Positions 4,890 through 37,260 of a stretch of DNA of 64,000 bases are shown piece by piece. Below the pieces are notes generated by a model. The model was not told where the DNA came from, did no database searches, and worked only from the letters and a program-made list of their open reading frames with translations. Each line of letters opens with the position of its first letter. Within the stretch, counting starts at the first letter, position 1. The DNA comes from Callipepla californica brunnescens (Eukaryota; Chordata; Aves; Galliformes; Odontophoridae). The position numbers and the translations under genes were made by a program. The DNA lies in the NCBI GenBank assembly GCA_023055505.1, contig JALIRH010000013.1, forward strand, positions 8,370,001-8,434,000, read 5' to 3'.

Positions 4890-5045
4890 ACTGTAGAATC
4901 TTGGAATGGCATTGGTTGGAAGGGACCTTAAAGGTCACGTATTTCCAGCCCCTTACCTCGGTAGGGACAGCTTCCATATCTATGCGTCTTTCTGTTAAGC
5001 AGGCTGAATTGTGGAAGAAATCCATGGATTGAAATGAATGGAGAA
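4890..5045 (-). repeat. CR1-type LINE 3' fragment (minus), copy 1
   Basis: The text 'gtagaatcttggaatggcat' followed by 'ttggttggaagggaccttaa' and 'ggtcac' is the antisense CR1 3' end. The same insertion sits at about 23203-23358 in copy 2, so it predates the duplication. Confidence 0.7.
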
Positions 5046-5642
5046 GGGTGATGGCCATCTCCTGTGGTCCTGATCATCAAAGCCATAAGGTCAGGACTCC
5101 AAACCAGCCTCTCTTTTTCACGTGCATGCCGCTGGCTTTGAAACAGAGCTGGTGGTTCTGAAATTGCATCTCAGAACAACCTCCCTGGAAAAGACTCTTG
5201 GGTCTTTTCCTTCTAGGGGTTGACAGCCTGATTCTTTGTCTCTGCCTGCAAGGTGGAAGCTTTTCTCTTTCTACTGACAGCTTCTTTAGAGTCCTCTTGT
5301 CATCTATGGTTTCAAAGAATAGCAATCCTCACTGATTCCCATGTTGTGTTTATCAGAGCATTACGTTTCCTTCATCTCCTTTAAAGCACAGAGCCTCATT
5401 GCCGCTCTAGGTGTAAAAGGGAAAGTTCTTTAGACCCTGCTCACTCCCATTGGCATCCTCCTGGCACTGGGATTCCCTGGCACCCGGGATTCCCCGCACA
5501 ACGCAGTGCCCGAGGCCGCCCCTCTCCGCTGGCAGGAAGGAGCCCGGTCTCCCCCACCCACAGCAAACCCAACGGGTGCAGAGGGGCTGAGCCCGAGCTG
5601 CTGACTTCCTCCCAGGCTGGGAGAGCACGGCAGCCTCAGGAG

Positions 5643-8246
5643 ATGCAGCGCTGCCGGGGCCTTGGCTCCGTCGTGCTGCTGCTGCTGCTGGGTGAGTCGG
5701 GGCTGGGATTGCTGCCGGGCAAGGTGTGAAGCCAAGGGCTGGCGATGGGCAAGGGGAGGTGGGATGCAGGGTGCTGCGAGCACCCGGAGCTGAGGTTGGG
5801 GCTGAATGGCTGCTGTGCTGCCTCCTGCTGCTCTGCAGGGCAAAGCCTGGCTCTTCTCATCGAAATCCCGCAGGATGTGGTCAGCGGCACCGTGGGGCAG
5901 TCCGTGCTCCTGCCGGTCTCCTACAGAGTCAACAGCTCCCTTCGCTTCCCAGTGTCAATTCGGTGGAAGTTTGGGAACAGCCGACAAGTGATCATCACCA
6001 CCTGCTCAGTGCAGAACTGCTTCCTGGATGCTTCGGGAGCTCCCAGTAAATGCTCCGCACTATATTTCCCTCATGCCAAATACCGGGACCGCGTCGAGGT
6101 CTTCCCTGAGAACGCATCCCTGCTGCTGTGGGACCTACGGCTCAGTGACAGCGGGCTGTACAGCGTCACCTTCACACAGCAAAACCAAAGCAGGAGGATT
6201 ACCCTGGCCGTGCACAAGGAGCCTGTTTCCTCCGAGCATCTTGACGAAGGTAAGTGCCCGTGTGCACGGACAGTTGTGCTCCTCGATTATAGAAGTAAGC
6301 CCACCCTATTCTGCTCTGCCTGCTAAATGAGAAGGACGAGAGCTTCTTGTGCATGCTTCTTGTGCACGTCTTGTGTTTATGTGAAATGAATGGCTTCATG
6401 TGGGAGAGACGGGCTCAGAAACTGATGCCCTGGCTCTTAGTCCTGTGCCAGAGCAGATCCATTATTTGCTGAGCTTAATGGGATGTTTAGAGATAAATCA
6501 TTAGCCACAGAGGCTGTGAAACTTACACCAAATATTCTTCTACCACTTTGGTGCCACCCTACCTTAAAAAGCAGGGGAAACGATCTCTGCTGCGGTATCT
6601 GCCAGCCCTGCATTCCCTTAGGAAGTACTCACAGCACGTGTTGTCTTCCCAGAACCAGACAACAAGCATCAAGACAACATCCATTACTACATAATTGGAG
6701 TTTGCTCTCTTGTCGGCCTCTTGCTGCTGTTCCTGGTCCTCTGCATACGGCGATGGGGTAGGTGGATCTGCTCCTGCATTTCTCCCTTTAAGGGAGTGTT
6801 TCTGGGGGATAAAGGCAGCAGAGGGCTCTTCTGACCAAAAATATTCCTTCCCCAAGAGTTCCCCCTTGATGTGCCCCTTCTGCCATTCCTGAAAGGTTCC
6901 GAGTTTGTGACGCAACTTAACGAAGCAGAAGCAGAGTACGGGGAGGTTTTGGTTTTCTGCAGAACCTAGATGGTTTAGTGCTGAGACCAGAACTGAGAAA
7001 TGGCATCACATCTAGTCAATCCATCACAAATTGATGGATTCAGAAATGCACCCTCTGAGTGTTGACATGATTATTCTGTTGTAGACACTTTAGAACTCCA
7101 GCTGGGGAGAATATCCTGGGTGGTGTCCACTTGAAAATGAACCTGTAAGATGCAGGTCTCTGCAGCTTCCATCAGCACCTTCACCCCTCAGGATGCCTTT
7201 GTCAGGAAGCAACTGCATTTGTTTCCAAGTGGGAAAAGTAACTTGTACTTGAGTAAAATAGCCACAGAGATCTCCGTCTTGACAACAAAATCCACATCAG
7301 CCCCTGGTGAATGTGCCAGCAGTGCACCTCGGGTTCCCCAGGGCTCAGGGAGAGGAGGGCACAGCGCATCAGTGTGTCTGTTGGGTACTAAAATTCTCCT
7401 TTTCTCAAATGCAGTGTGGCAGAAGAAGATGGGAACCACTACACAGCAGCAGGTACAGGCAGTTCTTCTGAAGGCTCCTTGGGTAAATGCTTGCTGCTGG
7501 CTTGAGTAGGATGCACTGAGCTGCAGGAATCATTTGCTGAATATAAAATTAGGAAGTTGGTTAGGTGCTGTAAGAGTAAGTTGCAAAGTGCCTGCCCTTC
7601 CCCCAGATGCACAGTTCCCCTTTGCCTCCCACCCAGAGCCCAGAGGAGCTGCTTTTAGGGACTTGAGAAGCCTGAGGACAGCTTTGACCAACAGCCGCAT
7701 TGAGGAAAAATGGTTACATGCAGAGAAATATGGAGACAGCCTCTCTTGTCTGATTGCCAGCCTTGTGAATTCATGTTCAGAATGTCTTCAGGGGTCCACA
7801 TGGGCCATTTAGGGACTCATCTCGTGCAGGGTTCCACCCGTGAGAAATAAAGCCCAGAGGAAGAGGCAAAAAAACCTCAGTAGGAGACAGGAGAGCAGGA
7901 CAGCCCCATCTGCTCTGCAGGCTGTGACTCCTGAAGGACCTGGCTTTGTCTGAGAGGTCCTTGGGTAAAATACTCCTTGCTGTCTGCAGTCAGCAGCTCT
8001 GGATCCCTTCTGATTCCAGCACCTTTGGTTTTCTCTCTGCTTCTCCAGGCCTCAGACACAGAGGATATTTACAACACCATGGCAGGGGACGTGGTAACAA
8101 TTTATGCCAGAATTGGAGAAGACATGGAAGAGACAAAGCCAAGAGCACTGCCAGATACTCTCTATGCATCTGTCACATTCCCTCATCTGCCTTCTGCTTT
8201 GGCTCCAAACCTTGCAGGAGATAGAGCTGCGGCAGAGCCAAGGTGA
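5643..8246 (+). CDS. A1: SLAM-family-like receptor, single V domain, one TM, two ITSMs
   Basis: Five exons: 5643-5691, 5839-6249, 6653-6757, 7415-7452 and 8049-8246 (801 nt, 266 aa), all GT-AG with matching phases. Residues 1-17 form a Leu-rich signal peptide. Residues about 23-140 form one V-type Ig domain that lacks the B- and F-strand cysteines (V-L-L-P-V and S-G-L-Y-S-V), as in CD2/SLAM V domains. It carries three cysteines in its middle (T-T-C, Q-N-C, S-K-C) and N-glycosylation sequons. The TM segment is about 165-185, followed by R-R-W. The tail holds Y-N-T-M at Tyr209 (a YxxM form), T-I-Y-A-R-I (Tyr220) and T-L-Y-A-S-V (Tyr240). The last two match the ITSM consensus that binds SAP/EAT-2-type SH2 adaptors, so a leukocyte signalling receptor is likely. 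The usual SLAM C2 domain exon is absent: nothing Ig-like lies in 6250-6652. Confidence 0.85.
8097..8174 (+). other. A1 tail: two ITSM codon blocks
   Basis: The codons at 8097-8114 read T-I-Y-A-R-I and those at 8157-8174 read T-L-Y-A-S-V. Both match T-x-Y-x-x-[V/I]. The Thr codon ACA (8097-8099) is the one changed to TCA (Ser) in copy 2. Confidence 0.85.
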
Positions 8247-8642
8247 TGCTGTTGTCACTCTGTCCCTTGAGACCAGACTCTTGGTGAGCCCACTCCTGCC
8301 CCATGGAGCAACTGGAAATGCATTAGTTTGCCTCAAACCACAGTTTCTCTTGAATTTGAGGGATGAGCTGTTTGTTGTTTCATCTTGAGAGCGCTTCCTG
8401 AGAGCACAAAGATGCTAAACGCAAGAGAAAGATGCCTAAAGCAAAGGCAAAACAACAGCTCACCCATGGGAAGCTCAATTTCATAGACACCTTTAACTTG
8501 AGGTATAGTGGAGATTGTTGAATGGATTTCAGTCTCGTGTCCCAATTGCCCTGTCACATTAAAAGCATGTATGAAGATCTTTGGACCTGGTGTCCTTGTT
8601 TTTATGGGCATGCCAAGTAATACTTGAGCAGACCTTTCCTGC

Positions 8643-8648
8643 AATAAA
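8643..8648 (+). terminator. Polyadenylation signal AATAAA for A1
   Basis: AATAAA lies about 400 bases after the A1 stop codon, in a conserved 3' UTR position. It is the first good signal after the stop. Confidence 0.6.
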
Positions 8649-9352
8649 TTTTGCTCAAACTTGGGGTCCCATGGCAATAGCATTTTAGGGTATCTGCAAA
8701 ATGCAATGAGAGAATAGATCAATTTTGTTCTTCTTTGGGTTCTCTGGGTTGCCTGATCTTTCTGCCCTTCGTCAGCATTGAAATGCATTGTTGTTTATTG
8801 TCAACTTGAAGGAGTGGCTGCTGTGTCGTGGCTGGGGTGAGTTAGAAGCTGGTGATGGGAAGAGGAAGAAAGCAGCATGATCTGAGCGAGCCCATTCCAA
8901 AACAGAGGGCAATTACAGCAGGTTCTTGAATAGTCCATACTGCAGTTTTTACTTTCACTTAATCATGCTCATAGAAAAATGCTTCACTTTTTGGCATCTA
9001 ACTTGCTTTGGGGCTAGAATTCTCTTTCTGCTATCCTCAGTCTTGGGCTCGGGACTTCTTCTTTCTACCTAACAGGTGCCACGTAAAGAGAGCTGCAGGA
9101 TTTGGGTGATACAGTGCCTGATTCTGGGAGAGTTGGGAAGTATTTGGTCCACACACCTCCACAGAGGCCAGTGTCTGTTGGTGAGTGGCTAGATGCAACA
9201 TCGACACCAGATCTCTGCAGTTTTGTGCTTGCCAAGTCCTGCCGTCCATGCTGGGTCATACACAGATGGGATAGCTGTGCTTGTGGCACGGTGTGGTTGA
9301 AACTCCATGCTTCTTTGGTAGACTGCAAGAGGAGCCCAGGGGATGGGAAATA

Positions 9353-10650
9353 AGGTATTCATGCAGCTAAGAACTGGGGGGAGGCATAGAGCCATAGAAT
9401 TATAAAGACTGGAGAAGACCTCTAAGATCATCTAGTCCCAGTCTGTCACAGATACCCCACAGCAAGCCCATGGCTCTGCTTGCATCCCATGCTATGTGTA
9501 AAACACAGAGCAAACTGCAGAAACCAGTAAAGCACAAGCTAAAAGAGAGGGGAGGAATGGTTGGCCACATTTTCTCTGTATGGTTTGCCTGCTGCCTTGT
9601 TTCTGACCTCTTCCCTTCCTCTGCCCTGATGTTCTGCTCCCCTTCTTGCTTCATGCTCTACTTGCGGCATTTTGCCCCCATCTCCGCCATGTCATGGCTA
9701 ATGTCTTGTGCTGCAGCCTCATCAGCTGCCTCTGCCCTTCCATTTCCTCCTCTGAGCAGCTTTTTTCACAGGGCTCTGTCTCTCTGGCCCCTTCTCTGAC
9801 TGCTCTTTGTAGCTTTTAAAGGTCAGTGTGGCTTTCTTTGTGGCTGCAGATGGCTTGGTGCTCACAGACCTCCCCCTCACACACTGCTCGCTGCATCTCA
9901 GAGCAGCTTCCTCTGACAGATACTTGCAGCCCTTGATTTCAAAGGCTCACCTAGTGCACCGTTCCTCTCAGCAGCCCTGCTGCTTGTCCTAGTTTCTTCT
10001 TCCACATTTTAATCCATCCCATGTGTCTGAAAGTCATCTTCTGCTGAGTGTGACGTACTCGGAGTGGGACAGGGGTGCCAAAGGGCATGGAAACTGTCAA
10101 CATATCTGAAGCCTTCTTCACCTCGGTCTTCATCAGTACGACTGGTCCCCCTTGGTGGGAGGGGAGCAGGTTAGGGAGTACCCAAGCCAACTAGCTGTAT
10201 GTAGGCACATGGGGCCTGATGGGATGCACATACAACCTCTGAGAGTGGCTGATGTCACGGCAAGGCTGCGCTTGGTTGTCTATGGGAGGCTGTGATAACT
10301 GGGAGAGGTTCATGAAGGCAGGTGGAGGGCAAACATCACTCCTGCCTTCAAAAAGGGGCAGGAAGGAGGATCTGGAGGAGCTCCAGGATGGTCAGCCTCC
10401 CCTCGAATCCTGGGTAGGTGGGGGAAGCCACTTCCCAACATGTGACAGGCAAGAAAGTGATTGGTCAGCGTGGATTTATGGATGAGAAATGCCATTTAAC
10501 CAAACTGAAAACCTTCTACATTGAAGTGGTTGGTTGGTAGATGAGGGCAGATGCTTACCTCAACTTTAGTGAGGCTTTTGATGCTATCTCCCTAAACATC
10601 CTCATGTCAACATCATGTCAGAGAAGATGACGAAGCGTGGGTTGGGTAAG
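9353..10650. other. 1.3 kb block present in copy 1, absent from copy 2
   Basis: In copy 2 the left flank (..gggaaata) at 27668 is followed by one extra T and then directly by the right flank (tgaatttatc) at 27670. The block carries a CR1 3' fragment and part of a second CR1. Its right edge falls inside that second CR1, so a deletion from copy 2 is more likely than an insertion into copy 1. Confidence 0.85.
9388..9475 (-). repeat. CR1-type LINE 3' fragment (minus)
   Basis: 'agagccatagaattataaag' followed by 'actggagaagacctctaag' and 'atcatctagtcccag' is antisense CR1 3' end. It lies in the block missing from copy 2. Confidence 0.7.
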
Positions 10651-10660
10651 TGAATTTATC
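10245..10660 (+). repeat. CR1 LINE ORF2 (reverse transcriptase) remnant, broken
   Basis: The plus strand resembles the CR1 reverse-transcriptase region: 'tgggagaggttcatgaagg', 'gatggtcagcctcccctcg', and a degraded form of the F-S-K-A-F-D motif stretch ('tttagtgaggcttttgatgc', 'tatctccctaaacatcctca'). Frames are interrupted, so it is an inactive fragment. Copy 2 keeps only what follows 10651. Confidence 0.6.
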
Positions 10661-12059
10661 AAGCAGATGGGGCTGAAAAACCAGGCCAAGACATTCAAAA
10701 CCAAACTGAACATGGTCCTGGTGACCATCTCTAAGAGACCCTATGTGAGCAAGCTGCTGGACTAGAAAAAGTGCCCGCAGGCCTTCGCTGCTCTGCCATC
10801 CTACCCACCCAGAGTGAAAAAGTGTCACAGGGCTTTACCAGAACTGATCTGGTGGAGAAGTCACATTACTGTTTGTTTGTTTTTTATCTGTCTTTTAACA
10901 CTATGTGGAAAACCCTTCAGCCAAGCACCTCCTGGTGAAGATCAGGGTGCTCCAAACTGCCTGCAACAGGAATGCTGAGATCAACCAAGGAATGCAATTT
11001 TCTTCTTCATCCGGACACTTTCTAGCAGATATCAATGATTTGTCCCTTTGTGACGAGGTGTGTTACAGCAGTGTGGGGCTGGAAAGTGATGCCTGAGGTT
11101 GTGCCTTTGGACAGGCTGTGACACTGGGTACACATCTGCTGCTGGTCAGCTGCTGTTATCTCTCTCCAACTGCAAGAAGGTGCCCTGACCCAAAGCAGTG
11201 TATGAACAACTCCTCCTCGCAGCTAGCATTTACAGGTTTGTGCTGCTGTGTTTGCTATTTGATCTCTCCCAGCCCTTTAAAAGGTGCAGGGTGCAAAACA
11301 AGTGCCAGAAGAGCTTTTAAAGTACGTATGAAAGGAGTTTACCTCATTTTTCATGTCGTTTATTTAAGATTAAGGGTAGAACATGACTTTAACATTTTCT
11401 TCCAAGGAGTTGTGGAAGGAGTAACATGGTAGAGTATCCTGATTGGTAAGCATGTCTCCTTGGAGAGGTGGGTATGGATGCTGGGAACGTGGTGGGAGCA
11501 TCCCCTCCAAGGAGGGGAAGGAGCTGCTGCTCCCGGTGACAAAGTGAATTTTTCTGCTGCAGCTTAACACCATCACCTTCACGCTTCTTTTAATTGCTTT
11601 CAGTTTTGCAGCTGTCCTGAGCACCCTGGGTGCAGCACTGCTTTGCTATGACTGAATATGAGTGTATAGTGACATGACCCTGCGCTGAGGAACCAAGGAG
11701 ATAGGAATAGAGAGCATGCACTTTGCTGGGCACAGGGAAATAGAGAAGTTTTATTAAAAATGAAAATGCACCGCTGGCAACAAAACAGTGTGAAGAGATC
11801 CAAACTGGAACAGCCTCTGCTTTAGCAAAAGGAAAAAAAAAAAAGAAGAAGAAAAATAGAAGGAAGAATAAGAGGGAAATCACTGTCTGTGACAAATCAT
11901 AACATGAGAAGCATTAAAAATCAGAGATGGATCTGCAAGGTATGCACGGGTTTCACACGTGGCCAAAATTGCTGAGATAACCATACCAAAAGCACCAGAG
12001 AAAGCTAAGAGCCTCTGCAGTGGTGTCAGAAATACTAAATTTAGGGGTGGATCTACTCC

Positions 12060-12237
12060 AGATACTAAATGTGGGTGGTGAGGCACTGGAGCAGGTTGCC
12101 TAGAGAAGTGGAGGTGGTGAAAGGCAGGTTGGACAGAGCTTGGAGCAACCTGATGTAGTGAGAGATGTGCCATGGTAAGAGATTGGACCAGAGGATCTTC
12201 CAGCCCAAACCACCCAGTGCTTCTATGATTCTGTGTA
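12060..12237 (+). repeat. CR1-type LINE 3' fragment (plus), copy 1
   Basis: 'ggcactggagcaggttgcct', 'agagaagtggaggtggtgaa' and a tail of 'cagtgcttctatgattctgt' form a plus-oriented CR1 3' end. The same insertion lies at about 29080-29257 in copy 2. Confidence 0.85.
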
Positions 12238-12939
12238 GCAAAATGAGGAATAACAGGGAGAAGTATGGGCATATTAATTTGAAAAGAGATTGGGGTAGAG
12301 AAAGGAAGGGTTGAGAAATTGGAAAGAGGACAGCAAAATACAGACACCAAACATGGGTCGCAAAAGGCTTGATGTCATCAGGTGGTTCAGATGAGTTTCC
12401 CTGGCTCAGATGGAGTGTGGATAGGGGTGACAGAGCAGCCAGACTTCACCATGTTGGTGGTGCTTCCTTTGGGCTTCATGACATACTCCCATCACTTCCT
12501 AGGGCTGTGCAGCCTGGTCCCAGCTTCCATCTCACTCTGGTTTTGATGGCCCAAAGGAGTCAGATGGAGCTGGCCATGCTCAGCAGGGCAAGAAATCTTT
12601 CTCTGGAGCTCTGGCCCCAGGCTCCAACCTCCCCAAGCTTCTCATCTCTCTGACCATTCAACCTGGTCCCCAGGTGCTCCTTCAGTGCATGCTTCCTTAA
12701 AATGAAATTCCTCTTGCAGAGAGCTTGTGACACATGGGTGATCTCATTCTGGATCTGCTTTGGTGGAGGACAACACCACTGGAAGTGAAACAAAGCCCCT
12801 GACACTGCCAGAAACTGCCTCAGGGAACTGGGATGCTCTCTGGGGGAAGATGCATGAAAGTGATGGAGACGGATCTTCTGACCTCACCCGGAATTTATAT
12901 TACTTTCAGAATAGAAATAGGAACCCCTCCTCGGATTGG

Positions 12940-13308
12940 AGTCGGGTGGGTTCTTCTCCCTGGGCCGTCGCGGCCACCAAGCGCTGCATTTCTTGCAGGG
13001 CCACTTCTGGGGCACGGCCTGGCTCCTTGGGACGAGACGCCGTGTGGGTACGGGATCGGGATGAGCATCGCAGCGCTGGGGCGGGAGTGGCTGCTGCCGG
13101 CAGAAACCTCCCAGGAAGGAGGAGAAGCGGCAGCAGGGGCAGAGAGGAGCAACCAACGGGGAGACGTGAGCCTGGAGCCAGCCCAGCCTCGGCGCTGCCC
13201 TGCGGAGCACAGCATCAGCCATCCAGCCTCGCAAGCAACAACCTGACTCGAAATTAGGAATTAGTATTTTTTTTAGTACAGCAATTTTGAGTCTCTTCCC
13301 CTCGACGG
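12940..13308 (+). promoter_or_regulatory. CpG-rich region before the B1 leader exon, probable promoter/5' UTR
   Basis: The stretch is conspicuously richer in CG dinucleotides (ccgtcgcggccaccaagcgc, ggagaagcggcag) than the surrounding DNA and ends just before the B1 start codon at 13309. An open frame crosses it but resembles no protein. I infer a CpG-island promoter with a 5' UTR. No TATA box is evident. Confidence 0.45.
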
Positions 13309-16300
13309 ATGCTGCTGCACCACCCCGTGGAGCTGCTGGGGATGCTCCTGGCAGGTAAATGGGGGTCTGATGCTACCCAGTGGGCTCGAGTCTGAATCCT
13401 CACCTGGGGCACACCAGCACAGGATTAAGCAGTTGTGTAATTACGCATGGGGATCGCTGGTCTATACGGGTCAGGCTTTTTTAAATGGGGCTAGATGCTC
13501 GTCCTCCAAGGGAAGAGCATTTCTGTTCTGCTGTCCCACGGTAGAGGAGCTAGAAGCAGCTCAGGAGCATGCCACTGAGGCTAAGAGTTTTCTGCAGGTA
13601 AGTCTGTACCGAGATCAATCTACATGATAACACAACGTTTATATCACCGCGGTGAGATTACTACATATGCACTGGTGGTTTTGAAGAACAAATGTACAAA
13701 GGTTTTCAGGCTGAGCATCTAAAATGGGGAAAAAAGCCTGTTAAGGTATATGCAGTAGCTCAGGTGTCATAGAGTTAGTGAGTGCTGAGTGTGTACAGAA
13801 TGAGCTTGGGATGTTGCAGTTGTAAAAAGGTGCTCATAATGAAGTATTTTCTCTTATTTCACGTTGATGACACTGTGTGAAGAGTGTTCTTCTAGAACAA
13901 GGGGACTTTCTGTTATAAACTCACTTATTCTCCTTGCATGCAGTTCTCAGGTGATAAAGGCACAAGAATAAAACCTGATGGCTGTTTCTATCGGTTGCCA
14001 GCATGAGAATTGGAAAAACCATCAGCTGGGCTCGTTTTGTTTGCCTCGTTATGGCTGATTTCTATCCTGCCCTGCAAATTTCCCAGGGGAAATAGCAAGT
14101 TTGCTCAGAAAGGATGATTTTCAGGAGGGTTTGCAGTGTGAATGCACAGCAACAGCTTTCATCAAGGGCAGGAACTGAGCTGTGGTGGAGGGAGAGGAGG
14201 AAGCGCAGCCTGCAGTGCCCGCTGTGTCTCTGCCTGCTCCTCCCCACCTCAGGCCATCTCCTCAGGGTCAGCCTGGCTGTCCTGCTGAGGGAAGGAGGAC
14301 CTCAAACAGAAATCCTGGTGTTTCCATCAGTAGAGGCACAGGTGTGTTTGTAGTGCGAGGAGAGCCACTGGCAATTCACTGGGTTTGTGCCTGGCTGATA
14401 AAGACCTTTTCTTACGTGACTGTTAATGTTTCTAGGTAAACAAATGCCATTCCTCTCATTTCCTCTGCCTAAGGTGCCTCCTCCCTCTAAACTATTTACT
14501 CTCATCTTCATTTGTTTGTAAGGACTGCTTTACAAGCCAGGATTTTAGCTGTTATGTCTGCTTGGCTTTCTCTGAATACTCTTTATTCCGTTTGGTCTGG
14601 GAGCTGTGACCCCTTGAAGTCCTCAGAGCCTCATGAAAAAAAACAACGCATATTGCCATGCATTTCAGGGAAGCAGCTCTATCTCACTCAAATGAGAGCT
14701 TTCAGCTCCAAACTAGATCAGGAACTGGGAATGAGATGATTGGGAAGTGCCTTCTGGGCACAGGCTGCTAGGGAAGGGCACCCTTACACATAAGACTTGA
14801 GTAGAAATGGCCTCAGCCCTGCAGACAGGTTTCTCAGAGCATCCAATACAAGCTCCCGATGGGATGTCACAACGCCTGTGTGCCTTGGCTCAGTGAGTAC
14901 CACGGTCCCTCCTGAGGGTTGCTTCATCTCCCTGGCTTGTCTTCTCTCCATCTTCTGCCACGCAGGGCTGCTGGTGCCTTTGAAACAGGCTGCAGAAGTG
15001 GAGACAGTCCTGCAGAGAAGAGTGGCCGTCGTGGGTTCCTCAGTGCTGCTTGTGAGGCCACTTAACATCACACGCATCCATTCTGTGCAATGGGAGCACC
15101 TCAACGGCACCGCTTTCCACACCATCCTGCAGTATGAGAGGCACAACCTGACCGTCCATGTGCCTTACATTGCACGAGTCCACCTGCATACATCCAATGG
15201 ATCTCTCCTCCTGGAGGACCTCCAGGAAAGTGACAGAGGCATCTACAGAGTGACTGTCAACCGGGAAGAAAGGGAGAGCTTGATGATCTCGCTGGATGTT
15301 CTCAGTAAGTGGTGGCCATGAGAGAGAGGAGTGAGATGATAGATGCAGGCAGTATTTTTGAATATGTATGGATCATCAGTCAAGTGAAGGGGCTTGGGGG
15401 AAGGGATCTGGATTAAGTTTAACAGGCCAGATATGGGGAACTTGGACCAGCCATGGATAGAGATCTTCCTAGAGAACTCTGGGAGACCACTAGATCTGGT
15501 GATGCTTCTTCTGCATCTGGATGTGAGAAAAGGCCTGGCCCCATACCAGAAGGTCCCTTCCAACCCTTTTCTGCTCTCTGAGAAGCAATGGAGAGGTTGG
15601 CAGTGCTGTGGCCAGTGTTACCCATGCCACGTCATTTCCAAGGGGAAGCTGATAGCACTGATGGAGTGAAGCCCAACAGGGTGGCCTTTAAGGAGAAGTC
15701 ACCAAAGTCCTCACCCACACACCAAGCTGCGTGAGGCTGTTTGCTATTTACAGGCACAAACTGCTGTTGCAGAGATAAGAGCATGCTTTAAATAACACAC
15801 AAGTCCCTTCTCGATGTTGCTCTTGCCAACTCCCTTAATTTGACTGGTTGTTTTCAATCTAATAATGCTGCTGCCATGATGTTACTGCAGCTTCTCTGCT
15901 GCAGAGAAATTTGCTTTCGTTTTTCTTTTTTTCTTTTTTTTTTTTTCCTTATATATTAAATGCCCTGTATTAACCCGAATATGATTTAAAAACCAATGAC
16001 TCAACTAGAGAAACAAAATAAATACCAGAAAGCCCAGCAACCTTGTGCAGTGCAAGACTTTCCAGCAGAAGCCACCTGTGATTTCATCCATGCAGATTCA
16101 AGGATGCTTTAATGCTACCACCCTAATCCCCACTGTGGATGGTCCTGCTTAGGTCTGAGAGAAGTGCTGGTGTTTCTGTTTCCTTTCCAGAGCCCGTGTC
16201 TCACCCTCAGCTCTGGAGCAGTGGCCTGGTGGCCAAGGCCAGTGGTGAGGTACTGTGTGAGGTGGCGGAGGGCAGGGCAGACACGTTCACCTGGAAGAAG

Positions 16301-19158
16301 GATGGGCAGATGCTTCCCCCAGACAGAAGTTATCGCCTCTCTGGAAGCATCAGTGTTTTGTACCTGAGGATGGCAAAGAAGTCGGACTGTGGTTCCTATT
16401 CCTGCAATGCCAGCAATGGGATAAGCTGGCAGGAGACCTCCCTGAACATCACTGTTGCAGGTGATCACTAAATCAGTGGCAAAAAATGAGCTTCCCGTGT
16501 GCTGCTCAGAGAGACATGGAGAGATGCTGCTCCCCAGAACCCCACACTCTTCCTTTGCTCCAACCGTCCGCAGTATCCTTGCTTAATTCACTCCATTTTT
16601 CTTCCATTCCCAAGGTCTTGCCATCCAGGATGCTCATGTGCTGTGAGCCAGAGCTCGCTGTTGTTAGGATGATGGGCAGCAATCTGCAGTCTTCCTTCCC
16701 ACCTCTAGCCGGCGCCAAGCCACAGATCCTGGTGGGTGGGATGGGCAGAAGAAGGCGTCCTTTCCTTCTTACAGAATGTCCCTAAGCCTGGGACAACACC
16801 ACAACCCTTGGCCAAGGCAGTGTTGGGCAGGACATGGTCAGAGGGTGGAACCTCATGGCTTGCCAGTGCCCTCCATGCTCATCCTGCTGTGACCTCACTC
16901 TGCTTCACAGACTGGTTTTGTTGTTTTTGTTTTCCAGGGCTCTCCCCTCCCTTGCAGGATGTGCTGAGGATTTCAGTGGTCGCTGTGGTCTTCGCTGCTG
17001 TCTCAGGATGGGGCATAATTTTTCCTGTCTGCCAGTCTGAAAAGCTAAGAATAAGTGAGTCTGCACTGGGGACAGCTGAATACCCAATTTCCTCCTCCAA
17101 TGGTGCTGAGTGAGGAGTCATGCTGTGGGAAGAGATAGTAACCCACTCATGCTCCCTTCCTGATGACTAAACATCTTCCCTTCTCATCTGGAAGGTCTTT
17201 TAAAGAGTTCACTCTCCTTGGTTGTTATTTTTTGTTTATTTTAGTGGCAAAATCTGATTTTGTTCTGTTTTCAGGTTAGGTTAATCCCTGGCATATCCTT
17301 ACATAATTTTTCTTTGAGCGTTGAGATGACTGAGAGACACTTCAGTAGCAAATGAGGCATCTCAGAGCATTTTCATTCTAAGACTCAATTTTTATTTAAG
17401 TGTTTTATATACACTATGCAATGGTTGCTACCCCTTCTTTAAAGTGGGTCAACTCTACTGTACCCTGGACAGGGACACCCCACTGCTGCATCCCAAAAGG
17501 AGGGCTGGGGACTGCTGTGGGACAGCCTGGGGGGACATAAATGTCACCCCACTCTGCTCTGGGTGTCTAGGGGGAGAGCTGTGGAGGTGGCTCAGTGCCT
17601 ACACCTGCGGGCTGGTGTGCATCTCCTCCATCCTGACTGGCACCGCTGGGCTCCTCTGGATGCGAGAAGAAGGTACAGGGCACTTTTGGGGGTGTTGCAG
17701 TGCAGATCTCAATCGTTTCCCTCATAAAGTGTACAACACGCAAGAGTAATCACTGGGGTGGGGACCTTATGGCAGACGAACATCCATGCGTGGCTGGAGA
17801 GAAGGGTGCTCCATAGACTGAATGAACCCACCAGGGACAACATATGGTTCCTCCGTGTGTGATCTCAGCTTGCTGTGGCTGATCGTATGGATGAGACACT
17901 CACTTATACTGCTAATATACACAAAACTTTTTTTTCCCGCAAAGACTTTTCCCAGTGGGTAACTGCAGAAGGGCACCAAGGAATGGAGCTGCACCCTGTG
18001 GGGGTGGGGAGTGACTGGGAAGGCCAGGAGGGTGAGAAAGGACATGATGGAGATTCATAAAATCCTGAAAGTGGTAGGCAAATGGAAGAAGTGGTGCTCA
18101 GCTCTGTGCTGTTCTCTTCCAGGCCCATCCATTGCTGTCATACTGCCAGAGATTTTCCTTTTGTATGTGATTGTGATCACCTTCCTAGTGGCCTCTACTG
18201 TGGCATTCCAGCCTACAAAGCTCACCCAGCTCAAAAGCACAGCAGGTGAGCTGTTCATGAATGGCAAGAATGGAGATAAAACCAAATGATCAGGGAGCTT
18301 TGTTTTGCCACAGCTCTCATTGCTCATGTGGCAGTTCTGGGGGCAAGTGTTAACATTTCTTTCTTGTCCTTTCTGTGGACAGCACAGCGCACGCTGGGCT
18401 ATGCTGCTCCAGGAGGGGTGCTCTTGGTGGTGTTGACAAGCAGCATGCACATGAAGAACATCCACCAGCGCCATGGTGAGAAAGCTGTCTGCCATTAGCT
18501 CTTCTGATCAACCATTTGGTTGGGACTGCTCCAAAAAATCCATCAAATCGTTTTTCTTTTTTTTTTTTTTTTTTCCCCCTCAGAGAAAATTTGTTTGTTT
18601 GTTTTCCTAAGTGTACTTAAGCATGTTTTCATAGTGGTGAACTGCTTTTCTCTTGTCTTTTCCTTCTGAGTTGTCTTCTGCTTTTTCCTTGCCTGATCAC
18701 AGAAGAAGGCTGCACGGCGTTCGTGGATGTCACCACCCTTGTGGTCAGCACAGCAGCGGTGCTGGCCCTGCCGCTCCTCGCCATCTTCCTCTGCTGTAAG
18801 TGCTCCTCCTCATTTCCCTGAGCCTGCATGGCATCAAGCTCCAATGTGAGTTGTTCAAAAGTTGTTTTTTCTGCTTATGAGAAGTCCTCCTAATCATTCT
18901 GGTGATGATTTCCCTTCCCTATCCCAGCTGCCATCCCCTGAGATCAGCACCCCGTGCCGTACCTCTCAGGTGCTTTCAATGATGTCTGGGTCACATCTAC
19001 ACATCTATATCCTACTTCTACAACAGTAAATGTGTTTTTTCACAGATCACACAACACAGGGGTGGCTGCAGGAACGTGATTCTGGTTGTGCACACAAGGA
19101 AAGGTACAGCCTTCTTTGCCTTTTCCCAAGGAAACACAAACATATCGTCTTGAAGTGA
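13309..19158 (+). CDS. B1: SLAM-like V+C2 ectodomain on a five-pass membrane protein
   Basis: Exons: 13309-13354, 14966-15304, 16191-16460, 16938-17054, 17571-17672, 18123-18245, 18383-18475, 18703-18795 and a probable last exon 19046-19158 (431 aa). Every internal boundary is phase 1. Residues 1-15 are the leader. Residues 16-128 form a V domain without canonical cysteines (ends D-R-G-I-Y-R-V). Residues 129-218 form a C2 domain with V-L-C-E, W-K-K-D-G, S-D-C-G-S-Y-S-C and N-G-I-S-W. Five exons follow, each with one hydrophobic helix, at about 227-248, 264-286, 295-319, 336-353 (weakest) and 371-394. Loops after helices 1 and 3 and the C-terminal tail are basic, which fits N-out/C-in topology. 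The tail has no ITSM. The 3' end is uncertain: a donor-like gtacag at 19104 could splice the last exon onward. Function is unknown; adhesion or ligand activity at the leukocyte surface is inferred. Confidence 0.8.
15440..15575 (+). repeat. Possible old CR1 3' fragment in B1 intron 2
   Basis: The stretch resembles a diverged plus-strand CR1 tail ('ccataccagaaggtcccttc' then 'caaccc') but lacks a clean tail repeat. The equivalent stretch in copy 2 is about 32450-32585. Confidence 0.35.
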
Positions 19159-19461
19159 AAAGAGTGGGATATGGAAACCAATACGTGCCTTGTTCCAAGG
19201 TTTAGACCCCAAGAAAGGCACAGACCAGTTCTCACTTCACAGTTCCTGATTTCACCCTGGTCTGGGATGCTGTGGAGAGGTCCATGTCCAGGGCAAATCC
19301 AATGCACAGCCTCAGTCAGCTTCTTTGTGCCCCAGACAAAACTATCCTGAGCTGAAGAAAGGAGCATCACAGCTGTGCATGGGGTCTTGTTGGTGTGTGG
19401 GGCTTCAGGTGTGGGGTAGGGCTGCGCTTGTGGCTCCTCTGATTGTCAGCACATGGGGGGA

Positions 19462-19640
19462 AACTTGAGGGTTATTTGGTCCAACACATCTGTTAACACA
19501 TCAGGCTGCTCAAAGCCCCATCCAACCTAAATTATACACATCAAATGACGGAGCACTCACAGCTTCTCGGAGCAGCCTGCTCTGTGACACAGCACCCTCA
19601 CTGTGAGATCTTCCTTTCCTCCAGCTCCTTTGAGATGTCC
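19462..19640 (-). repeat. CR1-type LINE fragment (minus), downstream of B1
   Basis: 'ggttatttggtccaacacat', 'caaagccccatccaacctaa' and 'agcagcctgctctgtgacac' followed by 'cttcctttcc' read as antisense CR1. Its copy 2 counterpart is at about 36479-36657. Confidence 0.65.
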
Positions 19641-19796
19641 GTGCCCATCAGCAAGGATCCTGATTTAACCGGCTAGACACTGGCGATGTTTCCTGCACGG
19701 CTGACTCAACATGTTAATGGCTCTGTTTCATAGGTCTGAGCCTATGATATCTTGGAGATAAACAGCAATGAAATTAACATTTGTCTTTTCTTTTTT

Positions 19797-19817
19797 ATTT
19801 ATTTATTTTTAATTAAA
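19797..19817 (+). promoter_or_regulatory. AU-rich element next to ATTAAA, possible B1 3' UTR end
   Basis: Overlapping ATTTA pentamers (19797-19805) run into ATTAAA at 19812-19817, about 650 bases after the B1 stop. If the B1 transcript reaches here this would be an AU-rich instability element beside a variant polyadenylation signal. The same arrangement is kept in copy 2 near 36814-36834. Confidence 0.3.
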
Positions 19818-20224
19818 CACAGGACTAGAGAGTTCAAACACACATATTCCCATTTATTTTCCTCTTTAAAACCAGTCTCTGTGTTAGAGAAATGCCTTTA
19901 AATCTTGCTACCAGCATCTCCCTCATTAGTTTACGGCATTAATGAGGCTGTGTATGTTTGTGAGTGTGTAGGTAACCAACCATGCCCACCCCAGCTTTTT
20001 CCTGCTGCTGCCTGAGGCCACACTCTACTGCTTCCTCTCTACATGGGTTGACCTCACATGCTTTGCAAGGCAGGTTCAGGCTCTCTTCTCCCTTATCCAC
20101 AGTTCTGTGTGCTCCCTGAGTGCCCCCTGAAGAACTTTACAAGCGAGTTGGCATCTCCTAAGGACTGCTGTTCTCCTTATCCAGCAGCATCCACGCCTGC
20201 AGTGACCTTTGTGTGTTTTAAACT

Positions 20225-20242
20225 ATTTGCATTAATGCAAAT
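20225..20242. promoter_or_regulatory. Perfect 18-bp palindrome made of two octamer motifs
   Basis: ATTTGCATTAATGCAAAT is its own reverse complement and holds the Oct-1/Oct-2 octamer (ATGCAAAT) once on each strand. Octamers are typical of lymphoid promoters and enhancers. It lies about 1.1 kb downstream of B1 and is conserved exactly in copy 2. Confidence 0.55.
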
Positions 20243-21239
20243 CCCTCTGCAGGAGCGCTGCACCTGTCCCTGGCCGTTGACAACAGCTCCTCTGTTCTCT
20301 GCTGTGGTTCTGTGCAGGAAGGAAATATGGGGTGTTAGGGAGGTGCTTTAGATTCATAGATCTAGATTCATAGATTTCTTAGGGTGCAATGTGTAGGCCT
20401 AGATGAGGGCGTTGCTTTTGCAGAGGATTTCCTGCCCACACTGCAGCCCGGGGAAGGTGAGGTTTGGCTCCAGGCATGCAATCTAGATGCTTGTTGATTT
20501 ACTTTCGTGCTCCTCTTTGTTTTTCCTGCCTGGAATTCCGACATCGCGTCCAACTCTCACTTCACCTTCAATTCCCACTGGCTTCCTCTTCCACTGACTT
20601 CAGCAGGAGCTGTGTTTCAGAGCTCAGCAAGTTTAACCACTGCCCACTCCCAATTTAACACTGCCTGTTTCAGCCTTCAGCAGCACCTCGTAAAGCAAAC
20701 AATGTGTGGACCTAGCAACTAATTGGCTTTTGGGCAAGATGCCCTTCTTCCATCACAATGCCAATATGATATTCAGGTTTTTGGCAGTACCAGAGAGCAT
20801 TTTCTGGACTGCAGCTGTTTTAGGCGTGAGGGTTAAGAATTCACTCGCTTCCGCAGCTCTGTAAAGTCTCTCCCTCAGTTCACCCCAAACAGCAGCTGCT
20901 GAGCGCTTGCAGTTCTGCAGGTGGGGTCCCTGGGGCTGGCCAAAGGGGAAGCAAACACAAATAGAGCCTGTGATGGGACTTTTCTGCCCTTTGTAAGAGA
21001 AACACTCTCCCTGCAATAATCGGTGCAATGAGGATCGCTGCCTGGCTACAGGTGGCAGCATCCCCTCCGAGGGGCAAAGGCCATATGTGTCTATTTGCCC
21101 ACCTTCTGTCACGCTTTCCTGTTCCCCTGGTACCTGATTGTACATGAAGTTATCTATTGATTTTTTTTTTTTTTTTTTTTGCCTTTGCTTAGTGCAGACC
21201 CTTAAGCTTAAAATTTAATCTATCAGGCTGAGGCAGGCT

Positions 21240-21640
21240 GTGGGATGCAATGGTCAGACTACAGAAGGAGTTGCTTGTCCTAGCACAGAGTGCCCCAGTG
21301 CGGGGTTCTCCCTCCCCAGCATATTTCCACATGCTGAGCCCCACAAGGTCCCTCAGCACGTGTCTTCAGCCTGCCCAGTTCCCTCCGGGTGCCAGCATCA
21401 CCCTTGGTGCCACTCATCCCAGTGTGGCGGTGCTGCTGAAGATGCTGGGCAATGCTGGCCCCAGCACTGACCCCTGTGACCCAGTGCTGTCAGGGCCTTG
21501 TGCTGCTGCCCATAATGCAGCTGTTCTGCTGGTTATCAGCCCTCTGCTGACCACCCAGAGCCCTATCTACTTTATCAGCGTGCTTATGGGGTTGCCAGAA
21601 GTCCAGCCTGCCCAATGCAATGCTGACAAACAGAAGGACA
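21240..21640 (-). repeat. Probable diverged CR1 fragment (minus), copy 1
   Basis: Phrases such as 'ccccagcactgacccctgtg' and 'cagccctctgctgaccaccc' followed by 'agagccc' resemble antisense CR1 internal sequence. The similarity is weak. Copy 2 has the same stretch at about 38250-38655 with a small insertion. Confidence 0.4.
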
Positions 21641-23202
21641 GAGAAGGAACCAGGCTATGGCAGCTTTCAGGACCTCTAGCAAGAAGATAATGCTGCTGCA
21701 CTGGGTTTACAGGGCAGGAGTTCAGTAGTGAGGACTGCATGGGTGTGAACAGAGCCCTGGAAGCTCTGCTGAGTTTTGGTACCAAGGAAACAGGAGGCCC
21801 TGCTTGGAATGGGTCAATGAATACATAACGTACTTCTGGGAAAACCTGTGCATAAACAACAGAAGTTACACAAAGTGAAGATCCTTTGTGTAAGCTGTGA
21901 GTGATAGGAGGATTATCACCACGCATCCAGGGCTGCCCATGGCAATACCTGCATAACAGTGATAAAACTTTCACTGCTAAGTGTCTCCGCATCAATTCCG
22001 TTGAGGCAGAATGCCTTATCCTCTGGAGCAGCTGTCATCCAAAATCGAGGAAGAAAACTCTCTTAACTCCAACGCAGTGTTAGAAAGTGGTATTCCCTTA
22101 TTCCTCACGTTACGTATTGAGTGATTCGGCAAGCAAACTCTGTCAGAGTTCGGGTTCCAGGTTTAAACAGTTAAGATGTACATATGGAACACATTTATAT
22201 ACATATTCATGCTTTTTCAAGGATCCATTAATATATGCTTCCCCACTTCTCACCATCAGCTCCATCACTGAGACCTTTGATTCACTTTCATCCACTTTTC
22301 CCCAGTATATTTCCACTGCTTATTAGCCTTTTTTTTTTTTTTTTTTTTAAAGCAATACACGTGGAACCCGAGGAACATGCCGCTTAAAGTTGTTATGAAT
22401 CCAGTGCTTCTGGGCATGCACTGGTTTACATCACTCAGAGGGACTGGCTCTGGATGCTCCACCCTCTCAGAACAGAAAGCTTTTTTCAAGAGAAGCTGCA
22501 AGAGGAGGTGAGTACCCACATGGGCTGAGCTGGCCGAGCTGGGGTGGGGGAGGGGAGGAGAGCTGGGGAGGGGGGACAGGGGCAGAGTAAAAGGGACAGG
22601 GACAGAATGAGGGCAATGGAGCCGTGGGACTGAAGCCATGGGAATGGGGGGACCCTGTAGTGCTTCCCACGTGGTGCTCCCACTCTCCCCTATAGGGAAC
22701 CAGGTTCTGCTCCTCCAGCTCAGATCTTCCCTTTTCTCGAGCCCTATAAATGCCAAATAAGCACTTTCAAAGCCATTTGCAGAGCTAAAAAACAATGCAC
22801 TCGGCTCGTGCACAGCTCTCCTGTGACTTCAGCTGCCTGCAATGAAAGGAACTATGCCAAAGCCCTCGATCACCATTTGCTGGCATCACCCGTATCTCCA
22901 GCAATAGCTGGAATGGAAGAAAAAGACGTATGAAGTGGGTACTGCATGCTGAGGGAGGGATCACCATGGAGATTTGGCCAGGACTTCCAGACAGGAGTTC
23001 AAGGTGCCCTTGAATCACGTGGAGATGACCATGTGCATCCCTCCTTGGGCTGTCCCTTCCCACCATGTTGGATCTCCACAGTGAAGACCAAGCTCTGCTC
23101 TGATGATGACACTGCCCTGATTTCTCCTATCTGGGGGGCTAGCAACCAAGGCAATCTCATTTAATAATGGGAATGTTCCTATCTGGTGAGATGCAAGAGA
23201 AC

Positions 23203-23358
23203 TGTAGAATCTTGGAATGGCATTGGTTGGAAGGGACCTTAAAGGTCACGTATTTCCAGCCCCTTGCCTCGGTAGGGACAGCTTCCATATCTGTGCGTCT
23301 TTCTGTTAAGCAGGCTGAATTGTGGAAGAAATCCATGGATTGAAATAAATGGAGAAGG
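23203..23358 (-). repeat. CR1-type LINE 3' fragment (minus), copy 2
   Basis: This is the copy 2 counterpart of the fragment at about 4890-5045, in the same position relative to gene A. Confidence 0.7.
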
Positions 23359-23953
23359 GTGATGGCCATCTCCTGTGGTCCTGATCATCAAAGCCATAAG
23401 GTCAGGACTCCAAACCAGCCTCTCTTTTTCACGTGCATGCCACTGGCTTTGAAACAGAGCTGGTGGTTCTGAAATTGCATCTCAGAACAACCTCCCTGGA
23501 GAAGACTCTTGGGTCTTTTCCTTCTAGGGATTGACAGCCTGATTCTTTGTCTCTGCCTGCAAGGTGGAAGCTTTTCTCTTTCTACTGACAGCTTCTTTAG
23601 AGTCCTCTTGTCATCTATGGTTTCAAAGAATAGCAATCCTCACTGATTCCCATGTTGTGTTTATCAGAGCATTACGTTTCCTTCATTTTCTTTAAAGCAC
23701 AGAGCCTCCTTGCTGCTATAGGTGTAAAAGGGAGAGTTCTTTAGACCCTGCTCACTCCCATTGGCATCCTCCTGGCACTGGGATTCCCTGGCACCCGGGA
23801 TTCCCCGCACAACGCAGTGCCTGAGGCTGCCCCTCTCCGCTGGCAGGAAGGAGCCTGGTCTCCCCCACCCACAGCAAACCCAACGGGTGCAGAGGGGCTG
23901 AGCCCGAGCTGCTGACTTCCTCCCAGGCTGGGAGAGCACGGCAGCCTCAGGAG

Positions 23954-26560
23954 ATGCAGCGCTGCCGGGACCTTGGCTCCGTCGTGCTGCTGCTGCTGCT
24001 GCTGGGTGAGTCGAGGCCGGGATTGCTGCCGGGCAAGGTGTGAAGCCAAGGGCCGGCGATGGGCAAGGGGAGGTGGGATGCAGGGTGCTACGAGCACCCG
24101 GAGCTGAGGTTGGGGCTGAACGGCTGCTGTGCTGCCTCCTGCTGCTCTGCAGGGCAAAGCCTGGCTCTTCTCATCGAAATCCCGCAGGATGTGGTCAGCG
24201 GCACCGTGGGGCAGTCCGTGCTCCTGCCGGTCTCCTACAGAGTCAACAGCTCCCTTCGCTTCCCAGTGTCAATTCGGTGGAATTTTGGGAACAGCCAACA
24301 AGTGATCATCACCACCTGCTCAGTGCAGAACTGCTCCCTGGATGCTTGGGGAGCTCCCAGTAAATGCTCCGCACTATATTTCCCTTATGCCAAATACCGG
24401 GACCGCGTTGAGGTCTTCCCTGAGAACGCATCCCTGCTGCTGTGGGACCTACGGCTCAGTGACAGCGGGCTGTACAGCGTCACCTTCACACAGCAAAACC
24501 AAAGCAGGAGGATTACCCTGGCCGTGCACAAGGAGCCTGTTTCCTCCGAGCATCTTGACGAAGGTAAGTGCCCGTGTGCACAGACAGTTGTGCTGCTTGA
24601 TTATAGAAGTAAGCCCACCCTATTCTGCTCTGCCTGCTAAATGAGAAGGACGAGAGCTTCTTGTGCATGCTTCTTGTGCACGTCTTGTGTTTATGTGAAA
24701 AGAATGGCTTCATGTGGGAGAGACGGGCTCAGAAACTGATGCCCTGGCTCTTAGTCCTGTGCCAGAGCAGATCCATTATTTGCTGAGCTTAATGGGATGT
24801 TTAGAGATAAATCATTAGCCACAGAGGCTGTGAAACTTACACCAAATATTCTTCTACCACTTTGGTGCTACCCTACCTTAAAAAGCAGGGGAAACGATCT
24901 CTGCTGCGGTATCTGCCAGCCCTGCATTCCCTTAGGAAGTACTCACAGCACGTGTTGTCTTCCCAGAACCAGACAACAAGCATCAAGACAACATCCATTA
25001 CTACATAATTGGAGTTTGCTCTCTTGTCGGCCTCTTGCTGCTGTTCCTGGTCCTCTGCATACGGCGATGGGGTAGGTGGATCTGCTCCTGCATTTCTCCC
25101 TTTAAGGGAGTGTTTCTGGGGGATAAAGGCAGCAGAGGGCTCTTCTGACCAAAAATATTCCTTCCCCAAGAGTTCCCCCTTGATGTGCCCCTTCTGCCAT
25201 TCCTGAAAGGTTCCGAGTTTGTGAAGCAACTTAACAAAGCAGAAGCAGAGTACGGGGAGGTTTTGGTTTTCTGCAGAACCTAGATGGTTTAGTGCTGAGA
25301 CCAGAACTGAGAAATGGCATCACATCTAGTCAATCCATCACAAACTGATGGATTCAGAAATGCACCCTCTGAGTGTTGACATGATTATTCTGTTGTAGAC
25401 ACTTTAGAACTCCAGCTGGGGAGAATATCCTGGGTGGTGTCCACTTGAAAATGAACCTGTAAGATGCAGGTCTCTGCAGCTTCCATCAGCACCTTCACCC
25501 CTCAGGATGCCTTTGTCAGGAAGCAACTGCATTTGTTTCCAAGTGGGAAAAGTAACTTGTACTTGAGTAAAATAGCCACAGAGATCTCTGTCTTGACAAC
25601 AAAATCCACATCAGCCCCTGGTGAATGTGCCAGCAGTGCACCTTGGGTTCCCCAGGGCTCAGGGAGAGGAGGGCACAGCGCATCAGTGTGTTTGTTGAGT
25701 ACTAAAATTCTCCTTTTCTCAAATGCAGTGTGGCAGAAGAAGATGGGAACCACTACACAGCAGCAGGTACAGGCAGTTCTTCTGAAGGCTCCTTGGGTAA
25801 ATGCTTGCTGCTGGCTTGAGTAGGATGCACTGAGCTGCAGGAATCATTTGCTGAATATAAAATTAGGAAGGTGGTTCAGTGCTGTAAGAGTAAGTTGCAA
25901 AGTGCCTGCCCTTCCCCCAGATGCACAGTTCCCCTTTGTCCCCCACCCAGAGCCCAGAGGAGCTGCTTTTAGGGACTTGAGAAGCCTGAGGACAGCTTTG
26001 ACCAACAGCAGCATTGAGGAAAAATGGTTACATGCAGAGAAATATGGAGACAGCCTCTCTTGTCTGATTGCCAGCCTTGTGAATTCATGTTCAGAATGTC
26101 TTCAGGGGTCCACATGGGCCATTTAGGGACTCATCTCGTGCAGAGTTCCACCCGTGAGAAATAAAGCCCAGAGGAAGAGGCAAAAAAACCTCAGTAGGAG
26201 ACAGGAGAGCAGGACAGCCCCATCTGCTCTGCAGGCTGTGACTCCTGAAGGACCTGGCTTTGTCTGAGAGGTCCTTGGGTAAAATACTCCTTGCTGCCTG
26301 CAGTCAGCAGCTCTGGATCCCTTCTGATTCCAGCACCTTTGGTTTTCTCTCTGCTTCTCCAGGCCTCAGACACAGAGGATATTTACAACACCATGGCAGG
26401 GGACGTGGTATCAATTTATGCCAGAATTGGAGAAGACATGGAAGAGACAAAGCCAAGAGCACTGCCAGATACTCTCTATGCATCCGTCACATTCCCTCAT
26501 CTGCCTTCTGCTTTGGCTCCAAACCTTGCAGGAGATAGAGCTGCGGCAGAGCCAAGGTGA
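23954..26560 (+). CDS. A2: SLAM-family-like receptor, single V domain, ITIM-like plus ITSM tail
   Basis: Exons: 23954-24005, 24153-24563, 24967-25071, 25729-25766 and 26363-26560 (804 nt, 267 aa). All are intact with the same phases as A1. The leader has one extra CTG (Leu) codon and a Gly-to-Asp change. The V exon differs from A1 at five residues (K to N, R to Q, F to S, S to W, H to Y) against one silent change. The TM and juxtamembrane exons are protein-identical to A1. In the tail the first switch motif reads S-I-Y-A-R-I (Ser219, Tyr221), which fits the ITIM consensus better than ITSM. The second, T-L-Y-A-S-V (Tyr241), is unchanged, as is Y-N-T-M (Tyr210). The role is probably similar to A1, with possibly altered adaptor preference. 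Confidence 0.85.
26411..26488 (+). other. A2 tail: ITIM-like (Ser) and ITSM codon blocks
   Basis: Codon TCA at 26411-26413 gives Ser in S-I-Y-A-R-I, where A1 has ACA (Thr). The downstream block T-L-Y-A-S-V (26471-26488) keeps the ITSM consensus, with a silent change in its Ser codon. Confidence 0.85.
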
Positions 26561-26958
26561 TGCTGTTGTCACTCTGTCCCTTGAGACCAGACTCTTGGTG
26601 AGCCCACTCCTGCCCCATGGAGCAACTGGAAATGCATTAGTTTGCCTCAAACCACAGTTTCTCTTGAATTTGAGGAATGAGCTGTTTGTTGTTTCATCTT
26701 GAGAGCGCTTCCTGAGAGCACAAAGATGCTAAACGCAAGAGAAAGATGCCTAAAGCAAAGGCAAAACAACAGCTCACCCATGGGAAGCTCAATTTCATAG
26801 ACACACCTTTAACTTGAGGTATAGTGGAGATTGTTGAATGGATTTCAGTCTCATGTCCCAATTGCCCTGTCACATTAAAAGCATGTATGAAGATCTTTGG
26901 ACCTGGTGCCCTTGTTTTTATGAGCATGCCAAGTAATACTTGAGCAGACCTTTCCTGC

Positions 26959-26964
26959 AATAAA
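26959..26964 (+). terminator. Polyadenylation signal AATAAA for A2
   Basis: Same position relative to the stop codon as in A1. Confidence 0.6.
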
Positions 26965-37242: not shown

Positions 37243-37260
37243 ATTTGCATTAATGCAAAT
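37243..37260. promoter_or_regulatory. Perfect double-octamer palindrome, copy 2
   Basis: Identical to the 18-bp palindrome at 20225-20242, at the equivalent distance downstream of B2. Confidence 0.55.

Follow-up and report, generated by a model that had tools for sequence, protein, structure and literature searches.

What kind of surface protein is encoded by a quail gene in which exons for a V-type and a C2-type Ig domain are followed, in the same frame, by five exons that each specify one hydrophobic segment? The gene (gene A) lies in a 64,000-nucleotide stretch of Callipepla californica brunnescens DNA (contig JALIRH010000013.1, nt 8370001 – 8434000), hereafter the window, and all positions given below count from its first nucleotide.

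Gene structure and neighbourhood

The earlier note on this DNA placed a leader, a V and a C2 exon and five one-helix phase-1 exons at nt 13309 – 18795, an arrangement that is confirmed by the splice sites, the phases, the frame, a duplicate, a paralogue and relatives (Table 1). All junctions of gene A are GT/AG, exons 2 – 9 each begin in phase 1, and the transmembrane (TM) exons 4 – 8 are 93 – 123 bases in length with a single hydrophobic segment per exon. Chance can be dismissed as the origin of these exons, since the duplicate (gene A') retains all of them together with their splice sites, a diverged paralogue (gene B) occurs in the same window, and 129 relatives have five TM segments.

The 3' end of the gene required correction. 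As first described, nine exons form a single frame of 431 aa with a last exon that extends to nt 19158, which is wrong, as relatives splice at nt 19103 into a tenth exon and the product becomes 430 aa. The new ending, SSFEMSVPISKDPDLTG, resembles orthologue tails, e.g. chicken SFEMSLPISMDPDLTS. The 'basic tail' previously described (KHKHIVLK) is intron read-through, and in family A neither the window tail nor that of chicken is basic. YSLL, considered as a sorting motif in that tail, was rejected because its letters come from an intron that is spliced out in relatives. Two sparrowhawk models (P0046, P0049) read through at the same intron site.

Table 1. Coordinates of genes, exons and tandem copies in the window
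Feature	Position (nt)	Strand	Remarks
Gene A (whole)	13309..19676	+	ten exons, product 430 aa, coding span ~6.4 kb
Gene A exon 1, leader	13309..13354	+	identical in copy A'; 14/15 residues in common with chicken LOC422295
Gene A exon 2, cysteine-free V-type Ig domain	14966..15304	+	Pfam V-set 1.6e-7
Gene A exon 3, C2-type Ig domain, C151, C195, C200	16191..16460	+	Pfam Ig_3 4.7e-13; three Cys invariant in alignment of 44 proteins
Gene A exon 4, TM1 plus beginning of inside loop 1	16938..17054	+	helix 222-249, AF2 model of chicken orthologue
Gene A exon 5, TM2	17571..17672	+	chicken orthologue: AF2 helix 260-291
Gene A exon 6, TM3 plus inside loop 2	18123..18245	+	chicken orthologue: AF2 helix 295-320
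Gene A exon 7, TM4	18383..18475	+	chicken orthologue: AF2 helix 331-363
Gene A exon 8, TM5 and the outside loop 2 that carries invariant C367	18703..18795	+	chicken orthologue: AF2 helix from 374
Gene A exon 9, beginning of cytoplasmic tail	19046..19103	+	donor at 19104; matches orthologue tails; earlier note extended exon to 19158
Gene A exon 10, C-terminal SSFEMSVPISKDPDLTG with stop codon	19625..19676	+	matches orthologue tails
Two head-to-tail copies, each with one U and one A gene	4601..39926 (about 4601-22910 and 22910-39926)	+	aligned parts 98.3-98.4% identical
Gene A', tandem copy of gene A	30329..36693	+	all ten exons intact; 12 codons differ, 6 of them silently
Gene B, old paralogue: V, C2, five TM exons, two tail exons	44284..50529	+	430 aa, same ten-exon plan as gene A
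Gene U, single-pass receptor: leader, one V, TM, tail with ITSM-type TIYARI and TLYASV	5643..8246	+	266 aa; adjoins gene A
Gene U', tandem copy of gene U	23954..26560	+	first motif is SIYARI

Substitutions between the tandem copies amount to 0.93% in exons, 0.83% in introns and 1.09% in flanks, a comparison that gives no signal of selection. The duplication is young, and the tandem of ~17 – 18 kb, with its clear joints, represents either a recent gain in copy number or uncollapsed haplotypes. A 1.3-kb stretch (nt 9353 – 10650) is present in the first copy only and by eye resembles a CR1 retroelement. Gene B shares 32% (V) and 42% (C2) identity with gene A, while its leader and tail resemble galliform proteins P0102 and P0103. 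Genes U and U' have the appearance of a SLAM-like, V-only signalling receptor that was duplicated together with gene A. The best solved match of gene U is SLAMF5, a weak one (E 0.0047). Part of its V domain is similar to the V of gene A, at 44% over 48 columns (E 5e-5), the stretch concerned being one that V domains share in general.

Relatives, clades and transcripts

Three protein searches, in which candidates were those sharing exact words, listed 228 distinct relatives (101 of 101 matches, the best 120 of 133 and the best 120 of 227), and among the named-organism matches so listed none came from outside the birds, crocodilians, turtles and tuatara. The highest matches of gene A are to other New World quails (Colinus, 96% identity; Cyrtonyx, 95%), and the chicken counterpart, Gallus LOC422295, is 91% identical. 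This is the unnamed predicted locus that had been surmised to exist already; it lies on a contig that we take to be chicken chromosome 4, and the known chicken SLAM genes are on chromosome 25.

Twenty-seven proteins, including two of the window, fall into three clades in a tree rooted at the midpoint only. Clade A (support 100/100) comprises birds, Mauremys mutica and Alligator sinensis; clade B (88/95) birds, turtles, Alligator mississippiensis and tuatara; and clade C (95/98) ostrich and two turtles. All five TM segments are present in the clade B protein of A. mississippiensis, and the tuatara clade B model is truncated before TM5. The simplest reading of this tree is that the duplications would predate the split of birds, turtles and crocodilians. 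The earlier suggestion that a bird lineage produced the five-pass protein does not hold, as turtles and alligator carry the family too. Clade C (P0228 of ostrich, P0095 and P0096 of turtles) shares the architecture of A and B and was not seen in the window.

When domains and TM segments were scored by alignment coverage, 221 of the 228 relatives were found to have the C2 domain. All five TM segments accompany it in 129 of these (nine of which have no V domain by the same measure), four in 66 and fewer in 26, so that 92 of the 221 listed C2 proteins are without one or more segments. That number would suit a single-pass protein whose later TM exons are an artefact of annotation or of the genomic sequence. 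Some of the TM-poor relatives are annotated isoforms, such as Gallus X5, which has no TM2 (P0014), and others may be faulty models, such as A. sinensis P0097 without TM4 and tuatara P0225, which ends before TM5. Five passes need not be required of every product of the family.

Evidence bearing on this point comes from twelve rows of the first two protein searches, all from a source marked 'lgn' and from no other. Eight of them (P0002, P0003, P0004, P0006, P0110, P0112, P0120 and P0138) comprise C2 and all five TM segments in frames of 417 – 436 aa, and sit on contigs of at most 1435 – 2214 bases; P0003 represents 48 contigs, the longest being 1618 bases. The remaining four are partial or run into unrelated sequence. 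Contigs this short leave no room for introns on the scale of gene A, and would thus be spliced RNA or copies of RNA. Their size implies that the TM exons are joined to the Ig exons in transcripts, the opposite of what the earlier note had reckoned with as fatal to the five-pass model, namely TM exons that are never so joined. Since, in addition, the phases are conserved in genes A and B and the same five segments recur in three paralogous clades, next to no credence can be given to the single-pass reading.

In several isoforms (P0013 – P0018, P0060, P0113, P0198) TM exons are skipped without a frame shift. Loss of TM2 alone leaves an even number of helices and would flip the later loops, while loss of TM3 and TM4 together keeps the number odd.

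Ig head, membrane half and a conserved cysteine pair

The V domain of gene A is free of cysteines; across the 129 five-TM members, 114 have none in V, 14 have one and a single member has two. The C2 domains of genes A and B have three each, the standard pair and C195. Among the Foldseek matches listed, a model of family A is closest to CD58 (E 2.5e-14) and CD48 (8e-14), and a model of family B to CEACAM1 (TM-score by target 0.77) and CEACAM6; CD58 takes fifth place there and CD48 eighth. A sequence profile search found CEACAM1 at 1.3e-22, but titin, a general Ig match, scored higher (9.1e-38). The Pfam family Receptor_2B4 is matched by 8 of 44 members, at best with 3.6e-5. The earlier description of the head as SLAM-type is therefore right as to the predicted fold, a V+C2 arrangement of CD2/SLAM type in family A, and too narrow as to membership, family B being nearest to CEACAM1 and CEACAM6 and no ITSM occurring in 129 tails. 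Among the predicted folds of a viral structure library that match the head are ORF11 of turkey and fowl adenoviruses and Ig-type proteins of primate betaherpesviruses.

Five TM helices are predicted in the models of both families. Averaged over the 129 members, net charge is +1.9 and +3.3 in the inside loops and -1.3 and -0.8 in the outside loops, a pattern that fits the N-out/C-in topology proposed previously; the first part of the tail has a mean of +1.4 (sd 2.1). TM4 is weakly hydrophobic in gene A, with a best printed 19-residue mean of 1.25, and scores 2.52 in a turtle orthologue; it is a helix in both AlphaFold models, which were made from relatives (families A and B). The linker before TM1 is of the type TVAGLSPPL. 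Tails differ between the clades, and neither an ITSM nor an ITIM was found in any of the 129. Family A proteins have an acidic residue inside TM3 (position 301 of P0001), and so do the B proteins of turtles and alligator, but not the bird B sequences shown.

In family A, all five TM exons exceed the V exon in conservation in six of the seven orthologues compared. Duck, for example, has 61% in V and 82 – 94% in TM1 – 5, and ostrich 61% and 68 – 89%, respectively. Comparison of family A with family B shows no such excess of the TM exons over V. The conservation of the multi-pass part within family A, and the acidic residue of TM3 there, would be in keeping with an Ig sensor on a channel, transporter or adaptor subunit, the kind of role suggested in the earlier note. 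When 14 TM halves were compared with Pfam, scattered weak membrane families were returned; among the best 25 of 58 of these none was matched by more than four of the halves, and the one that was matched by four reached an E of 1.4 at best. Among them there was no consistent match to a transporter or channel family, and a role of this kind has no support here and is very improbable.

Four cysteines are invariant in an alignment of 44 proteins: C151 and C200, which form the standard C2 pair, C195 and C367. Both C195 and C367 are cysteine in 129 of 129 members with C2 and five TM segments, and C367 is the only invariant cysteine of the TM half across 14 sequences from clades A, B and C. In the AF2 model of the chicken orthologue (DSSP), C195 immediately precedes strand F (196 – 203) and faces the end of strand G (215); TM1 starts at residue 222, so that C195, as modelled, is on the membrane side of C2. 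In the ten Ig domains of the printed alignments (from two proteins, titin and Robo1) the corresponding position is always occupied by another residue. C367 lies in the TM4 – TM5 loop, which is outside by the charge rule. CD47 has a disulfide between its Ig domain and outside loop 2, described as Cys33 – Cys263 (C15 – C245 in mature numbering), and its loss is reported to reduce SIRPalpha binding (PMC10902115, PMC3564380, PMC8410850) and to block signalling (PMC10902115). From the sequence pattern and by analogy with this bond, we infer that C195 and C367 form a disulfide. Being invariant in every member, the pair is unable to show covariation.

A five-pass adhesion protein could also do without such a bond, its helices serving only as an anchor and C195 or C367 being engaged in dimers or free. 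Ig adhesion molecules of this fold commonly act with no lock between head and membrane, the C195 – C367 bond is itself a prediction, and about 40% of the 129 members have a further C2 cysteine at position 175 (P0001 numbering), which gives an odd number of cysteines and another possible partner. Set against this are the retention of both cysteines in all 129 members, in a place and a loop that match the CD47 bond, and the position of C195 at the membrane end of C2. We regard the unlocked form as somewhat unlikely.

Known systems and proposed role

The choice of CD47 as the nearest parallel, made in the earlier note, was borne out by the five TM helices, the N-out/C-in orientation and the cysteine pattern. 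Both designs consist of an Ig head on five TM segments with a short tail (the topology being predicted here), and in both a cysteine of outside loop 2 is matched by a spare one in the membrane-near Ig domain. Unlike CD47, which has one IgV domain, the present family has V and C2, with the spare cysteine in C2 rather than V; it also has no SWF linker and no sequence or profile match to CD47 was found among the PDB profile and Pfam matches listed. With two Ig domains, no SWF linker and no profile match among those listed, the family does not belong with CD47.

An alternative reading is that the five-helix base alone is homologous to that of CD47, with the head exchanged. Equal helix number and orientation, a short outside loop 1 and the conserved cysteine of outside loop 2 would all agree with such a far-diverged relative. 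A PDB profile search with the TM half for a donor family returned one chance match, an acetylcholine receptor subunit, and no chain better than its E of 7.8; Pfam gave no family up to E 10 for the TM half of the window protein and no CD47 among the best 25 of 58 for the 14 members, all of these being insensitive tests. CD47 did not appear among the best 50 fold matches per search either, an absence that carries no weight, as full-length models were the queries and Ig matches filled the lists. Given the profile and Pfam results and the missing SWF linker, a far-diverged kinship with CD47 appears clearly unlikely.

CD2/SLAM proteins (CD58, CD48, SLAMF5, SLAMF6) are similar in having a V domain without cysteines followed by C2, and provide the best Foldseek matches of the family A model. 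They have one pass or a lipid anchor as against five passes here, where an ITSM is also wanting. The C2 domain of the CD2/SLAM group has two disulfides (four Cys), whereas that of the present family has one standard pair and a spare cysteine. By these strict features (five passes, no ITSM, differing C2 cysteines) the family is not a SLAM member. CEACAM1 and CEACAM6, the best Foldseek matches of the family B model, differ in the same way from the predicted five-pass form, as CEACAMs are single-pass or lipid-anchored. HEPACAM, also single-pass, is likened by name only, the name having been given automatically to several family B database entries. SKINT and butyrophilin-like proteins do carry an Ig head on several TM helices, three in number. 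A similar lineage range is known for chB6 (Bu-1), described in PMC11882424 as a CD2/SLAM-like protein of birds, crocodilians and turtles with two Ig domains; it is a type I single-pass protein with a proline-rich tail, encoded beside CD2 on chicken chromosome 1 (PMC11882424). The likeness to chB6 thus extends to lineages and Ig domains, the difference being one pass versus five.

No literature was found on Gallus LOC422295 or on six other LOC numbers of the family, and topic searches gave no title on such a family among the best-ranked matches. The five-pass V+C2 family of birds, crocodilians and turtles (with a partial tuatara model) is, as no paper on it was found, undescribed and unnamed.

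The interpretation that we favour, with moderate confidence, is that of a five-pass IgSF family in which a ligand or adhesion head is locked on a five-helix base, a CD47-like design with a CD58/CD48/CEACAM-like head. The putative C195 – C367 disulfide would lock C2 onto the top of the five-helix bundle, and the cysteine-free V domain would thereby be presented in a fixed pose. The protein would be displayed on the cell as a ligand or partner in adhesion, would itself do little or no tyrosine signalling, and would have its head read by a counter-receptor on other cells; it may also assemble with other membrane proteins. The missing ITSM/ITIM and the well-kept TM exons of family A suit display of a head in fixed pose better than a tyrosine-signalling receptor. 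An immune label for the family would be given by analogy.

Gene U, the neighbouring V receptor with two ITSM-type motifs, would be the first candidate counter-receptor, because it adjoins gene A, is duplicated with it, has a related V domain and possesses the signalling tail that A is without. Mammalian 2B4 and CD48 are such a receptor-ligand pair, with genes that lie close together. Position and V similarity suggest that gene U is perhaps the partner. More tentatively, it is possible that the family forms a second, independent class of five-pass proteins with locked heads, in which case the CD47 design would have arisen more than once in vertebrates, and reptiles and birds would have a recognition pair with an ITSM-bearing neighbour comparable to CD47 – SIRPalpha or CD48 – 2B4.

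CD47 has been called the only 5-TM receptor of the immune system (PMC8410850). A layout of the CD47 type is now seen also in three paralogous clades, in lineages that include chicken. If the cysteine bond is real, an Ig head locked on a five-helix base either arose twice or is older than thought, and the reason for the odd anchor of CD47 becomes testable by comparison. For poultry immunology, LOC422295 would add a new surface molecule, encoded next to a receptor that has two ITSM-type motifs.
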